Under the pieces are notes generated by a model, which saw nothing but the letters and a program-made list of their open reading frames with translations, did no database searches and was not told the origin of the DNA. Shown in pieces: positions 2,545-48,033 of a DNA stretch of 48,168 bases (positions within the stretch are counted from its first letter, which is position 1; each line of letters opens with the position of its first letter). Both the position numbers and the translations under genes were made by a program. Source of the stretch: Christensenellaceae bacterium (lineage in GTDB: Bacteria; Bacillota; Clostridia; Christensenellales; UBA1242); assembly GCA_031262595.1 (NCBI GenBank), contig JAISHI010000007.1, positions 1 through 48,168 of the forward strand. The letters are read 5' to 3'.

Positions 2545-3567
2545 ATGGGAAAAGAAAAGCCGATGATTATTCCAACGCAAAGGACAGAAGAGCAAAAACG
2601 ACAATATAAAAATTGGGACAATCGTGTAAGAATTTACAATAAAATCGCCGAAACTGAAAACACAAACGCAATCATAGCGGAGTCGCTTTCTAAGAGTGGG
2701 AGTATATCTGAAAAAGATTATTTGGATATGCAAAATAAAATTAAAGAGAGATTGAGGGTAGCAAAAGCGGATTTAGGGGACTATGATCCTGCGGGAATTT
2801 ATAACAAAATCGTCAAAACTGAAAATGCAAACGTCAATGACGCAAGAGCGCTTCGTGCGAGTGGGCTCATGTCGGAAGAAGAGTGTTCGCGTATTGAAAA
2901 CGAAGCGGCAGAAAAAATTGAGTCGGCAAAAGTTCGGTTGAAGGAACAAGAGGATGCGCAAGCCCGCGATGATGAATTTAACAAAGAACTTGACGAGAAA
3001 TTTAATAAAGAAAACGAAGAAATGTTAGCTGCGCGCCGAGAAGAGTTTAAAAATAATAAAGAAAACGAACTGCATATAAACGAGATTAAGCAAATTTTAG
3101 ATAACTTCAATAAAATACGCGAACGAATGACAAAGCCTTGGAATTTGAACGAAAAAAAGACGCTTAGAATTAGCGGCGGGGAGCATGGGTCTGAAGATGG
3201 GATGTTTGCATTCGAGTCAGCCATAGGTAGTGGAAAAAAATGGGAGGCTATTTTTGCAAAATATCACAATAATCAACAATATCAGGGTTTTGGTATTAAA
3301 GGTTGGAGCGATGATCTTGGATATGAAGTTAGTATGCCTTGGGATTGGTTTAATATTGGCGATTTTGTCAACCTCGATGAAATTGCAATAGCCGAGGTTG
3401 CGGCCCTTGAGGAAAAATGTTTAGAGCGATTAAGAATAATGAATAAAAATATAGAGAAGGCTATGGGTGTGTTGCCAGAAAAAGAACCTGGCAAGCTTAG
3501 AAAACTAGGACTATCGATAGGGCGATCGACAGGAGTATGGCCTAAAGATTTAACGATAGAAAAATAA
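2545..3567 (+). CDS. Uncharacterised cytoplasmic protein with internal duplication
   Basis: 340 residues, family not recognised. There is no signal peptide or membrane segment. An internal repeat is visible: IYNKIAETENTNA followed by SLSKSGSISEKDY near residues 30-75, and IYNKIVKTENANV followed by ALRASGLMSEEEC near residues 86-130. A charged, probably coiled-coil stretch (about 130-190) follows, then a C-terminal domain with tryptophans and the helix LERLRIMNKNIEKAM. Translation starts at the ATG after AAGGAG. The gene has its own palindrome-covered promoter and a strong terminator, so it is a single-gene unit. The C-terminal part weakly resembles the protein at 43190-43882 (FNKI near the start, LRIM near the end). 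Confidence 0.75.
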   Translation: MGKEKPMIIPTQRTEEQKRQYKNWDNRVRIYNKIAETENTNAIIAESLSKSGSISEKDYLDMQNKIKERLRVAKADLGDYDPAGIYNKIVKTENANVNDARALRASGLMSEEECSRIENEAAEKIESAKVRLKEQEDAQARDDEFNKELDEKFNKENEEMLAARREEFKNNKENELHINEIKQILDNFNKIRERMTKPWNLNEKKTLRISGGEHGSEDGMFAFESAIGSGKKWEAIFAKYHNNQQYQGFGIKGWSDDLGYEVSMPWDWFNIGDFVNLDEIAIAEVAALEEKCLERLRIMNKNIEKAMGVLPEKEPGKLRKLGLSIGRSTGVWPKDLTIEK

Positions 3568-4217: not shown

Positions 4218-4907
4218 CTATTTTATCGCGAAATATTTCATGCAAAAATCGAGATAGCCTTCTAGCGTTTTAATTTTTAACAACTCTTTTTTATTTGCGC
4301 TGTAGGCGGGCAGGTTTAACTCGCGCTGTTCAAGAGTTTCAAGCATCTCTTCAAACCCGCGCCTAATTTCGGCGTCGATTTCGGCAATTTTCGCGTTTTC
4401 GGCCTCGATTTTTTCGCGTTTTTTTGCGTCAAGCCCAGTCGGGTCTTTTATCATGCGCTTTAAGGCTTGCGTTATGAATTGGGCATGCAGCAAAACGCTC
4501 GCGGTTGCGGCAATTCGCGGAAAAACTTGGGCGAGTGCGCCGTTATAAACTGGGATTTTGGCGTTTTGTTCGTCGAGTAAGATTTTTTGTAAGGCCTCCC
4601 ATTCGATTTGCATCCCAACAAGCGAACTTTCATAAATATCTTTCGTCGCAACGAGTTTCTCGAAAAAGTCGGCTTGGCTTATCTTGTTTTTGGACGCGGC
4701 GGGGCTTTCGATTGGGGCAGGGCTAGTAGGCGCGACGTCATCAAAATCCAAATCGTTTTGCGCGCTACCGTCATTTTCGTCGGCGGTCGCGTAAACCCCT
4801 CTATTATAGTTGATAAAATCGTTGGTTTCGGCTAATAACTTTTCGGCATCGATAAGGTCGATACGTTCAAACAGCGAATACTTCGAAATGTAAGGGATTT
4901 TAACCAT
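4218..4907 (-). CDS. Uncharacterised helical protein
   Basis: 229 residues from the ATG at 4907; the preceding in-frame TTG at 4910 is less likely. No recognised domain. The middle (about 55-75) is a low-complexity linker rich in Asp, Ala, Pro and Ser, separating a short N-terminal part from a helical C-terminal half rich in Glu, Ala and Lys (KREKIEAENAKIAEIDAEIR) that is probably coiled coil. No signal peptide or membrane segment. The start codon has no Shine-Dalgarno and sits seven bases after a TTGCAA-18-TATAAT promoter, suggesting a leaderless mRNA. Confidence 0.65.
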   Translation of the reverse strand: MVKIPYISKYSLFERIDLIDAEKLLAETNDFINYNRGVYATADENDGSAQNDLDFDDVAPTSPAPIESPAASKNKISQADFFEKLVATKDIYESSLVGMQIEWEALQKILLDEQNAKIPVYNGALAQVFPRIAATASVLLHAQFITQALKRMIKDPTGLDAKKREKIEAENAKIAEIDAEIRRGFEEMLETLEQRELNLPAYSANKKELLKIKTLEGYLDFCMKYFAIK

Positions 4908-19347: not shown

Positions 19348-19365
19348 TTTGTGCAAAATGACGAA
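19348..19365 (+). repeat. 18-bp motif, copy A upstream of rpoB
   Basis: TTTGTGCAAAATGACGAA; consensus of the three copies in the window is TTTGTGCAWWATRACGAA. Copy B lies 45 bases downstream and copy C at 47998. Role unknown. Confidence 0.55.
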
Positions 19366-19392
19366 GAAAGTTTGTTTATGTTGCGAGAAAAG

Positions 19393-19410
19393 TTTGTGCA
19401 TTATAACGAA
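19393..19410 (+). repeat. 18-bp motif, copy B upstream of rpoB
   Basis: TTTGTGCATTATAACGAA, same orientation as copy A, ending 48 bases before the rpoB -35 box. Confidence 0.55.
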
Positions 19411-19458
19411 AACGGCGAAAAAAGTTTCATAAAAAGACAAAAAATAACAAAAAAAATA

Positions 19459-41900: not shown

Positions 41901-43049
41901 TTAATAGGTTTGCATTCCGCTTATTGCCTCGGCGATTAGGGCATCGAAATCGAGTTTCGCTTCTTCGGCGATGACTTTATTAAGTTTCGGTTTGATTGCG
42001 GGGTGGGTTGGGACGAAAACGGTACAACAATCGATAAAGGGTTTTATGCTTTCCTCGAACGAGCCGATGCGTTTAGCGATCGCGATAATTTCCTGCTTAT
42101 CGAAAGTTATAAGCGGGCGCAAAATCGGCAATTTTTCGGCGCAAAAATTATTCGACGCGATGCCTTGAATCGTTTGGCTCGCAACTTGCGCGAGGTTTTC
42201 GCCGGTTATGATACAATCCGCTTTAATTTCGAGCCCAACTTTTTCCGCGATTTTAATCATGAAGCGGCGCATGAGTGTTATCATAAACTCGTCGGCGCAT
42301 TTCGAGTGGATTTCTTGTTGGATTTTCGTAAAGGGAACGACGAAAAGGCGCGCTCTGCCGCAATAACGCGAAACTATATCGCGCAAGTTCTTAACTTTTT
42401 CGAGCGCCTCGGGGCTCGTATAGGGCGGGGAGGCGAAATGGATGAAGTCGACGGAAAGCCCGCGTTTTGCCGCGAGATAGCCGGCGACAGGGCTGTCGAT
42501 TCCGCCCGAAAGCAGGCAAATCGCGCGCCCAGCCGTTCCAACAGGCAAGCCGCCGACCGCGCGCTCCTCCTCGAAATAAACGAACGCACTCTCGGCGCGG
42601 ATTTCGACGAAAAGCGTTGTTTCGGGCGCGGTTAGGTTGACTGTCGCGCCCTTGTTATTATCGAGAACGATTCCGCCGAGTATTTTCGCGAACTCGTTGC
42701 TGTTCGGGGAAAAATTTTTGTCCGCGCGGTTGACGGTTGCGCGGAACGAACCCGAGATTTTTAAGGCGGCGACATATTTTTCGATATTTTCTCGGGTGGC
42801 TGGTTTAATCTCGGTCGCAACGGATAACGAAACTATCCCGAAAGTCGATTTAACCGCATCTTTAACCGCGTTCTCGGCGGCGGCGGGATAATCCCGAACT
42901 AAAATCCGCGCGTCTTCGAGTAAAACTTTCGCTTCGGCGGTTTTCGGGTCGGCTTTTAGTTTATTTCTTAAATTCTCTCGGAGCGCACGCAAAAATAATC
43001 CCCGATTAGAGCCCTTAAGATGAATTTCGCCAAACCTTCCAATAATCAT
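41901..43049 (-). CDS. thiI: tRNA 4-thiouridine synthase
   Basis: 382 residues from ATG 43049 (MIIGRFGEIHLKGSNRG), the conserved family start; the longer frame from 43127 runs through the promoter. Domains: N-terminal ferredoxin-like and THUMP region (1-165), then the PP-loop adenylation domain with LLSGGIDSPVAGYLAAKRG (~178-196). It adenylates U8 of tRNA for thiolation. The C-terminal rhodanese domain of E. coli ThiI is absent, as in many Firmicutes, so the sulfur carrier must be another protein. TTGACA-18-TATCCT ends six bases before the ATG. Confidence 0.93.
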   Translation of the reverse strand: MIIGRFGEIHLKGSNRGLFLRALRENLRNKLKADPKTAEAKVLLEDARILVRDYPAAAENAVKDAVKSTFGIVSLSVATEIKPATRENIEKYVAALKISGSFRATVNRADKNFSPNSNEFAKILGGIVLDNNKGATVNLTAPETTLFVEIRAESAFVYFEEERAVGGLPVGTAGRAICLLSGGIDSPVAGYLAAKRGLSVDFIHFASPPYTSPEALEKVKNLRDIVSRYCGRARLFVVPFTKIQQEIHSKCADEFMITLMRRFMIKIAEKVGLEIKADCIITGENLAQVASQTIQGIASNNFCAEKLPILRPLITFDKQEIIAIAKRIGSFEESIKPFIDCCTVFVPTHPAIKPKLNKVIAEEAKLDFDALIAEAISGMQTY

Positions 43050-43055
43050 ACGGAA

Positions 43056-43085
43056 AGGATAACTCGCTCGGCGGCGGTTTGTCAA
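43056..43085 (-). promoter_or_regulatory. thiI promoter, leaderless spacing
   Basis: On the minus strand: perfect TTGACA (43085-43080), 18-base spacer, TATCCT (43061-43056), then six bases to ATG 43049. The -35 box lies inside the left copy of the 21-bp direct repeat. Confidence 0.7.
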
Positions 43086-43093
43086 GGCGGGGG
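43073..43093 (+). repeat. 21-bp direct repeat, left copy
   Basis: Ends in GCGGTTTGTCAAGGCGGGGG, identical over 21 bases to 43916-43936. The two copies bracket the poly-G-promoter cassette. This copy carries the thiI -35 box on the minus strand. Confidence 0.85.
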
Positions 43094-43120
43094 TGGCGTT
43101 AAGAAATTTTAAAAAAACAC

Positions 43121-43150
43121 TTGACAAATTCGTGGGGGGGGGGCTATACT
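43121..43150 (+). promoter_or_regulatory. Promoter with poly-G spacer (possible phase switch)
   Basis: TTGACA (43121-43126), 18-base spacer that contains ten consecutive G (43134-43143), TATACT (43145-43150). Gain or loss of one G would change the spacer to 17 or 19 and alter promoter strength. An AAAGGAG site precedes ATG 43190. Confidence 0.75.
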
Positions 43151-43189
43151 TAATTTCAATAAGTATTATTTTAATAAAAGGAGAGAAAA

Positions 43190-43882
43190 ATGAAACTTAC
43201 AAAAATGACAGAGGATCTTAACAAGGAGCAAATACCGGACTTTATTCAAGAATATATCGATAAAAATCCAGGCGCGATTGGTCCGGAACTTCTTAAAATT
43301 ATGGTGGATTTCAATAAAATTACGGAAGCACTTAAATGTGGCGATTTGTCCTTTTACGAGGAATACAATGGTAACTTTAGAAGAGAAAATCTAATAATGG
43401 ACGGCGTAAACGAGTCCGAGGCAGAAGCCGGTTATTGCATTAGAGAGTTCGCCGCTTCTACATATAAAGGTCTTAATGAATTCCATGTATGTTATTCACT
43501 TCATAGGAAAAGGTCTTCCGCGGAACAAGGAGCCCGGGAAGATGACGATAGTATGTTCTGGTTTTCTGAATGCACAATTCTCAATGAAAAAAGGGGCGGT
43601 CCATTCCAGCGTTTTAGTATAATGTATTCACCGAGGAAGTCTGATCCGAGTAAGCCTAGGCGGTGCTATGAATTTAATTGCCCTATTATCGCTAGCGCGC
43701 CATATTATTATCCTGATACCCGACCATATAATTTTTCTGATGCTCAGCATAATAATGAAATTATGGCGCGTTTGCGAATAATGAGTGAGGACTTATCAAA
43801 TATTTATAACGAGAAACAGCGACAAGACCGAGAAAGGTCTAACGCTCGCATGCAAGAAGCCGTAAACTCGCAGGATAAATAA
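43190..43882 (+). CDS. Uncharacterised protein under a poly-G promoter
   Basis: 230 residues, no recognised family. It is hydrophilic, with no signal peptide or membrane helix. A helical N-terminus (MTEDLNKEQIPDFIQEYIDKNP) is followed by a mixed region rich in Tyr, Arg and Glu (CYSLHRKRSS, FQRFSIMYSPRK, YYYPDTRPYNF) and a C-terminal helix LRIMSEDLSNIYNEKQRQ. Codon use is less GCG/CGC-rich than thiI or asd, in line with a foreign origin. The gene plus promoter is bounded by 21-bp direct repeats. FNKI and LRIM segments are shared loosely with the 2545-3567 protein. Good Shine-Dalgarno, unlike the flanking leaderless genes. Confidence 0.75.
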   Translation: MKLTKMTEDLNKEQIPDFIQEYIDKNPGAIGPELLKIMVDFNKITEALKCGDLSFYEEYNGNFRRENLIMDGVNESEAEAGYCIREFAASTYKGLNEFHVCYSLHRKRSSAEQGAREDDDSMFWFSECTILNEKRGGPFQRFSIMYSPRKSDPSKPRRCYEFNCPIIASAPYYYPDTRPYNFSDAQHNNEIMARLRIMSEDLSNIYNEKQRQDRERSNARMQEAVNSQDK

Positions 43883-43915
43883 CGTCAAAATAATAGGCTA
43901 GACGCCCGATTGGCG

Positions 43916-43936
43916 GGCGGTTTGTCAAGGCGGGGG
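43916..43936 (+). repeat. 21-bp direct repeat, right copy
   Basis: Identical to 43073-43093. This copy carries the asd -35 box on the plus strand. Confidence 0.85.
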
Positions 43937-43951
43937 CGCGCGGCATATAGT
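43922..43951 (+). promoter_or_regulatory. asd promoter, leaderless spacing
   Basis: TTGTCA (43922-43927), 18-base spacer, TATAGT (43946-43951), then five bases to ATG 43957. Confidence 0.7.
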
Positions 43952-43956
43952 GAACT

Positions 43957-44979
43957 ATGAGGATTGCGGTTGTTGGCGCAACGGGGCTTGTTGGGCGGAA
44001 GATTTTAGAGGTTTTGGGCAGGCGCGCGGGGCAGAAATTAAAACTCTTCTTGTTCGCTAGCCCGGAAGAGAAAGGAACGCCTATCGAATTTCGCGGACAT
44101 ACATATAAAACCGAAGTTTTAAGCGTGGCGCGGATAAAGAAAATTCGCGTTGATTTCGCGCTTTTTTCCGCTGGGGCAGAGGTTTCGCGCGTTTGGGCGC
44201 CGATATTCGCTGAGAGCGGCGCAACCGTTATCGATAACAGCACCGCGTTTCGAAACGACCCCGAAATTCCGCTCGTTGTTCCCGAGATTAACTTCGACGC
44301 GATAAAGCCGACGGATAAAATCATCGCGAACCCGAATTGCTCGACGATTATCGCCGTTTTGGCGCTTAGCGAAGTTCGGCGGTTATTTGGTTTAAAGCGT
44401 GTCCTTTATTCGAGTTATCAAGCAGTTTCGGGCATGGGAACGGCGGCCCTCGATGACTTTTGGAACGGCGTAAACCGCGCGGTTAAGTTTCGCGCTAACG
44501 GAATTAAAGAACGGGGCGCGCCGAAAGTTTTTAAATACGAAATTTTTAATAATTTAATTCCGCAAATAGATAGTTTCACGGCGAACGGCAATACAAAAGA
44601 AGAGGAGAAGATGATTAACGAAACGAGAAAGATTTTAAACGACGCGAACCTCAAAGTTACGGCGACTTGCGTTAGGGTTCCGATTGAGAACGGGCATAGC
44701 GTTTCGATAAACGCGGAATGCGAGCGCGAAATTGATATCGGTAGACTTCGCGAGGCTCTCGCAAAAACGAAAGGCGTAGTTTTATTAGATAGCCCTGAGG
44801 ATTTTCTTTTCCCGATGCCGATTTTCGCGAACGGGCGCGACGAGGTTTTTGTCGGGCGGTTGCGGTTAGATAACTCCGCACCTAACGCGCTTAATTTCTT
44901 CGTTTGCGGCGACAATATCTTAAAAGGCGCCGCGCTAAATGCCGTTCAAATTATGGAGAGGCTCGCGACATATAAATAG
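43957..44979 (+). CDS. asd: Aspartate-semialdehyde dehydrogenase
   Basis: 340 residues. Reduces aspartyl phosphate to aspartate semialdehyde with NADPH, feeding lysine, diaminopimelate, threonine and methionine synthesis. GATGLVGRKIL is the nucleotide loop, NPNCSTI carries the catalytic Cys, SYQAVSGMGTAAL follows, and PIENGHSVSINAECER holds the catalytic His. Full length. No ribosome binding site; the message is predicted to be leaderless. A 52-residue membrane protein starts two bases after its stop. Confidence 0.95.
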   Translation: MRIAVVGATGLVGRKILEVLGRRAGQKLKLFLFASPEEKGTPIEFRGHTYKTEVLSVARIKKIRVDFALFSAGAEVSRVWAPIFAESGATVIDNSTAFRNDPEIPLVVPEINFDAIKPTDKIIANPNCSTIIAVLALSEVRRLFGLKRVLYSSYQAVSGMGTAALDDFWNGVNRAVKFRANGIKERGAPKVFKYEIFNNLIPQIDSFTANGNTKEEEKMINETRKILNDANLKVTATCVRVPIENGHSVSINAECEREIDIGRLREALAKTKGVVLLDSPEDFLFPMPIFANGRDEVFVGRLRLDNSAPNALNFFVCGDNILKGAALNAVQIMERLATYK

Positions 44980-47997: not shown

Positions 47998-48015
47998 TTT
48001 GTGCATAATGACGAA
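47998..48015 (+). repeat. 18-bp motif, copy C
   Basis: TTTGTGCATAATGACGAA, differing from copies A and B upstream of rpoB at one to three positions. It lies 18 bases before the -35 box of the outward promoter. Confidence 0.55.
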
Positions 48016-48033
48016 ACATTTTAATTTTTCGTA

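Follow-up and report, generated by a model that had tools for sequence, protein, structure and literature searches.

When a transposon or an integrative element duplicates its target site, the new DNA comes to lie between two identical direct copies of that site; exact direct copies likewise bracket the gene studied here, and 21 bp is long for the target duplication of a transposon. For Neisseria meningitidis, PMC3639595 gives 11 G between the -35 and the -10 box of porA in strain 8047, besides variants with 9G and 10G, and for Treponema pallidum PMC7864442 gives poly-G tracts near the promoter of tpr genes. A direct repeat and a poly-G promoter come together at one locus of the window (the whole stretch of 48,168 nucleotides that was analysed, from a Christensenellaceae bacterium): a gene for a protein of 230 aa, located between thiI and asd, is bracketed by two copies of the 21-bp repeat GGCGGTTTGTCAAGGCGGGGG and preceded by a predicted promoter with a run of G in its spacer. 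The arrangement points, in our judgement with moderate confidence, to the joint occurrence of a one-time insertion at a promoter core and a phase-variable poly-G promoter. The features are collected in the table.

Table. Features of the thiI-asd region and copies of the motif TTTGTGCANAATGACGAAA (positions in the window, unless a contig of the genome, G000, is given)
Feature	Position	Strand	Basis or remark
thiI	41901..43049	-	PF02568, 5.6e-66
Predicted thiI promoter, TTGACA-18-TATCCT	43056..43085	-	consensus scan, 10/12 matches; -35 at 43085-43080, within left copy; ATG 6 nt on
Left copy of 21-bp direct repeat GGCGGTTTGTCAAGGCGGGGG	43073..43093	.	exact match
Predicted promoter of intervening gene, TTGACA-18-TATACT, spacer with G10	43121..43150	+	consensus scan, 11/12 matches
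Run of ten G in promoter spacer, proposed switch	43134..43143	+	sequence
Intervening gene, 230 aa	43190..43882	+	no Pfam match above cut-off; none in PHROGs, NCBIfam, PADLOC
6-bp G+C-rich hairpin just past gene, over first 4 bases of right copy	43903..43919	+	fold
Right copy of 21-bp direct repeat GGCGGTTTGTCAAGGCGGGGG	43916..43936	.	exact match
Predicted asd promoter, TTGTCA-18-TATAGT	43922..43951	+	consensus scan, 10/12 matches; -35 within right copy; ATG 5 nt on
asd, aspartate-semialdehyde dehydrogenase	43957..44979	+	PF02774, 1.5e-39
TTTGTGCANAATGACGAAA copies in window	47998-48016, 19348-19366, 19393-19411
TTTGTGCANAATGACGAAA copies on other contigs of G000	C5:6960, C5:21492, C17:11507, C28:3056, C6:30557

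The two copies of GGCGGTTTGTCAAGGCGGGGG agree in 21 of 21 positions and are spaced by 843 nt; with up to three mismatches allowed they were the only copies in the window (0 expected from shuffles), and with up to two mismatches the 19-base core was recovered twice in the genome of 811,205 bases and not at all in the reversed control. The repeat from which the earlier note started is free of mismatches and has no counterpart elsewhere in the 811-kb genome, and the insert has at both ends the direct repeat that is expected of insertion with target duplication. Three exact repeats of ≥ 20 nt with a spacing below 5 kb occur in the window, among which GGCGGTTTGTCAAGGCGGGGG (the second longest of all exact repeats ≥ 14 nt spaced < 5 kb) is the sole intergenic one of such length, since the other two (23 and 20 nt) are located, by their coordinates, within long reading frames. 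The promoter boxes are consensus matches from a plain consensus scan of positions 43000-44000, which returned six sites versus a mean of 2.6 in shuffles; the predicted promoters of the intervening gene, thiI and asd ranked as the top three, all with a spacer of 18 nt. The earlier note had further proposed that each repeat copy provides the -35 box of one neighbour (the left copy that of thiI, the right copy that of asd) and that both boxes overlap in a single copy. The proposal agrees with these top-ranking sites, and the overlap, as read from the sequence, amounts to 5 bases inside one repeat copy. The -10 boxes of thiI and asd are found outside the repeats, each on the proper side.

Because these -10 boxes end 6 nt (thiI) and 5 nt (asd) before the ATG, both promoters look leaderless. 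Promoters of this geometry form a genuine class here: the pattern TTGACA-N16-19-TANNNT-N3-8-ATG was matched 24 times versus once in the reversed control, and the matches (e.g. C4:43047-43085) include the thiI promoter itself and two poly-G promoters. Reading frames that resemble FtsZ, triosephosphate isomerase and YebC were recognised by eye among the 24. At the leaderless sites L286 and L289 a diverging gene was read by eye close by, with -35 boxes that are adjacent and not shared, and at L298, L301 and L303 three similar small helix-turn-helix-like genes with leaderless promoters were found, each with a small diverging ORF.

Without the insert and one repeat copy, 64 bp are left between the start codons of thiI and asd, which is enough room for two back-to-back leaderless promoters with a common -35. 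The simplest history that we infer is the insertion of ~0.84 kb into this 64-bp divergent promoter region, with duplication of 21 bp. The two copies of the repeat would then both derive from a single promoter core, from which the ancestral thiI and asd would have diverged across ~64 bp by back-to-back, probably leaderless promoters with an overlapping -35 in common, and a single insertion, which brought in the orphan gene with its own promoter, would have left each neighbour with a -35. The cassette has a G+C content of 39%, versus 49-50% for its neighbours, which is no more than suggestive; the GC3 of the gene (0.37) falls short of the window mean by 1.5 sd, and there are genes of the window with a lower value still.

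A history without insertion, in which a rearrangement or local duplication joined thiI, the gene and asd while the second core arose by copying or conversion, seems rather unlikely to us. It finds support in the relatives, where thiI was near asd in 0 of the 69 asd loci examined (out of 92 other asd-bearing family genomes; 23 were left out), so that the thiI-asd arrangement is young in any case. However, insertion with duplication accounts for both cores in one step, and the position of the -10 boxes, outside the repeats and on the proper sides, likewise speaks against a rearrangement. As the genus is represented by one genome and none of the 69 relatives has thiI near asd, there is no locus that is comparable to this site.

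The run of G in the promoter of the intervening gene belongs to a set. G-tracts of ≥ 9 occur at nine sites in the genome (16 overlapping matches), and the arrangement that characterizes porA, a homopolymer between -35 and -10, is found at this locus and for eight of the nine tracts overall, which lie between TTGACA and TAT with a -35 to -10 spacing of 16-20 nt and comprise 9-11 G. The genes behind the eight promoters encode one amino-acid permease (PF13520) and seven proteins without a Pfam match above cut-off, two of which are similar and secreted-looking; it is mostly orphan genes that these promoters precede. The ninth tract, a ten-G run (L045, at G000:C6:47706-47715) within a coding region that by eye resembles InlB-type repeats, is possibly a frame-switching tract. 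A 19-bp motif, TTTGTGCANAATGACGAAA, was recovered in eight copies in the genome at ≤ 2 mismatches (reversed control 0), three of which precede the TTGACA of a poly-G promoter by 17-18 nt; it suggests a common regulator site or a dispersed repeat.

The layout recurs in the relatives. The pattern TTGACA-N3-12-G9-N0-3-TAT was present in 69 of the 309 family genomes, spread over 23 of 42 genera, and its reversed form in none of the 309. A stricter pattern retrieved at least 119 stretches from named genomes, and because the matches listed (80) come from Saccharibacteria and numerous uncultured Clostridia and Bacilli, along with a scatter of other groups, the poly-G layout can be called widespread. 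The named isolate Streptobacillus notomytis (L113) has two poly-G spacer promoters (3086-3116 and 4296-4325) that are 1.2 kb apart. In several family genomes near-identical promoters recur with G counts that differ by 1-3 between the sisters (G305: 10/10/11; G288: 12/12/11/11; G287: 10/9; G164: 9/10/10; G140: 9/10; G237: 10/10/11), and in G305 the genes behind them are, by eye, unrelated. These differences, which concern paralogous promoters and not alleles, are the strongest hint so far that the tracts are unstable. The spacer measured 15-20 nt in 51 of 52 poly-G sites. That G-tracts are confined to promoters throughout the family was ruled out by G144 and G140, which have many tracts outside the strict pattern; in G237, six of seven tracts fit it. 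At the loci L270-L277 of G288 and G287, the proteins encoded behind poly-G promoters carry repeats of a glycine-rich, MSGG-like motif and seem to be multi-copy surface proteins. A description of this promoter set in this family was not found in the open-access literature, an absence that carries little weight.

We propose that transcription of the inserted gene starts at the promoter that came with it, where the ten Gs would set the distance between -35 and -10. Judging from the layout and from the relatives, slippage of the G run during replication could shift this distance and thereby switch or tune expression, as in meningococcal porA, and such a switch would need neither a recombinase nor movement. 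The idea that a loss of mismatch repair drives tract change was rejected, since the MutS N-terminal domain was found in this genome and in 291 of the 309 family genomes; with MutS present, extreme slippage would not be expected. The same presence of MutS, together with the fact that no length variation is observable at this locus, would fit a spacer that is merely a fixed structural element or a feature of strong promoters and does not switch. We regard a fixed spacer as unlikely, as tract lengths differ among near-identical promoters of one genome and the spacers are spread over 15-20 nt instead of having settled at 17.

The product of the intervening gene gave a single, sub-threshold match in the Pfam search and had no homologues in genome contigs, viral contigs, phages, plasmids or solved structures; its single-sequence structure prediction reached a mean pLDDT of 39 and was set aside. 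A paralogue (263 aa, 36% identity) was found in the same genome at G000:C8:19563-20351, with nusA (identified by eye) on one side and a KilA-N gene on the other. A profile of both retrieved no further relative from 396 genomes of the order, and the single-protein search of the other 308 of the 309 family genomes gave no convincing one; two weak family matches (E 0.007 and E 0.0096), of which one contains stops, were judged to be due to chance. Since the same-genome paralogue is the single relative in the family and order searches, the gene is lineage-specific. The hairpin behind it is only a possible terminator because its T-tract is weak, and a rule-based scan of 43000-44000 returned no terminator after the gene.

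The earlier note had described an element without a recombinase of its own, either passive or mobilised in trans, and had suggested a look for similar genes between direct repeats elsewhere. Neither a recombinase nor terminal inverted repeats were seen in or at the insert, so the first description stands, and a passive one-off insertion is possible; the part on mobility was not borne out. The 300-nt flanks of the paralogue and of the seven other poly-G genes of the genome share repeats of at most 10 nt, which is about shuffle level (10 nt versus a shuffle maximum of 9 for the gene on contig C16). In the relatives, 15 poly-G genes from 30 loci were testable (the window's own excluded) and none had a flanking repeat near 21 nt; the longest, at L065, measured 16 nt in A+T-rich DNA versus a shuffle maximum of 13. 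A mobile cassette, in which the 21-bp repeats would be attachment sites or targets and recombination between the two, with an enzyme from elsewhere, would excise or move the gene, is very improbable: it would explain the exact repeat at both ends, and the paralogue does adjoin a KilA-N gene, but the repeat occurs genome-wide at this locus only, comparable repeats are missing around the paralogue and the other poly-G genes here and in relatives, the gene has no relative in phages, plasmids or IMG/VR, and the 21-mer is absent from viral contigs. There is no support for a family of cassettes with repeats of this sort, and with no comparable repeats elsewhere and neither inverted ends nor recombinase we keep the one-off insertion and drop the mobile cassette. 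Misassembly, by which a gene from elsewhere would have been joined at a 21-mer common to assembly graphs, is very unlikely. The genome, incomplete and split into 29 contigs, is probably a metagenome assembly, but a third copy of the 19-base core does not occur in it, and the usual assemblers would need a longer shared word for such a join.

Taking insertion and poly-G promoter together, the repeat illustrates how a compact genome could take up a new gene between back-to-back promoters with neither neighbour silenced. Of more general reach is the set of poly-G promoters: promoters with such spacers appear to be a recurrent and measurable feature of a little-studied family, and expression switching in uncultured bacteria thereby becomes testable straight from sequencing reads. 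More tentatively, we suggest that this family of uncultured bacteria with ~1-Mb genomes may use a poly-G promoter module ahead of unrelated, often lineage-specific genes, such that each cell would express a random subset and new orphan genes would be acquired already equipped with the switch.

In comparison with transposons and other mobile cassettes, the locus has the flanking repeat but lacks a terminal inverted repeat, a recombinase and any further copy of the element that has the same ends. With the tpr genes of Treponema pallidum it has in common that several paralogous genes would be under G-tract control, whereas the tract there reportedly lies elsewhere with respect to the hexamers and the proteins are unrelated. 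The closest likeness is to porA, where, according to PMC3639595, the length of a poly-G between -35 and -10 alters expression, and the same layout with 9-11 G is found here, albeit in another lineage, with eight tracts per genome and mostly in front of orphan or secreted-looking proteins. These promoters are best explained as porA-like phase-variable promoters, a kind that is already known.
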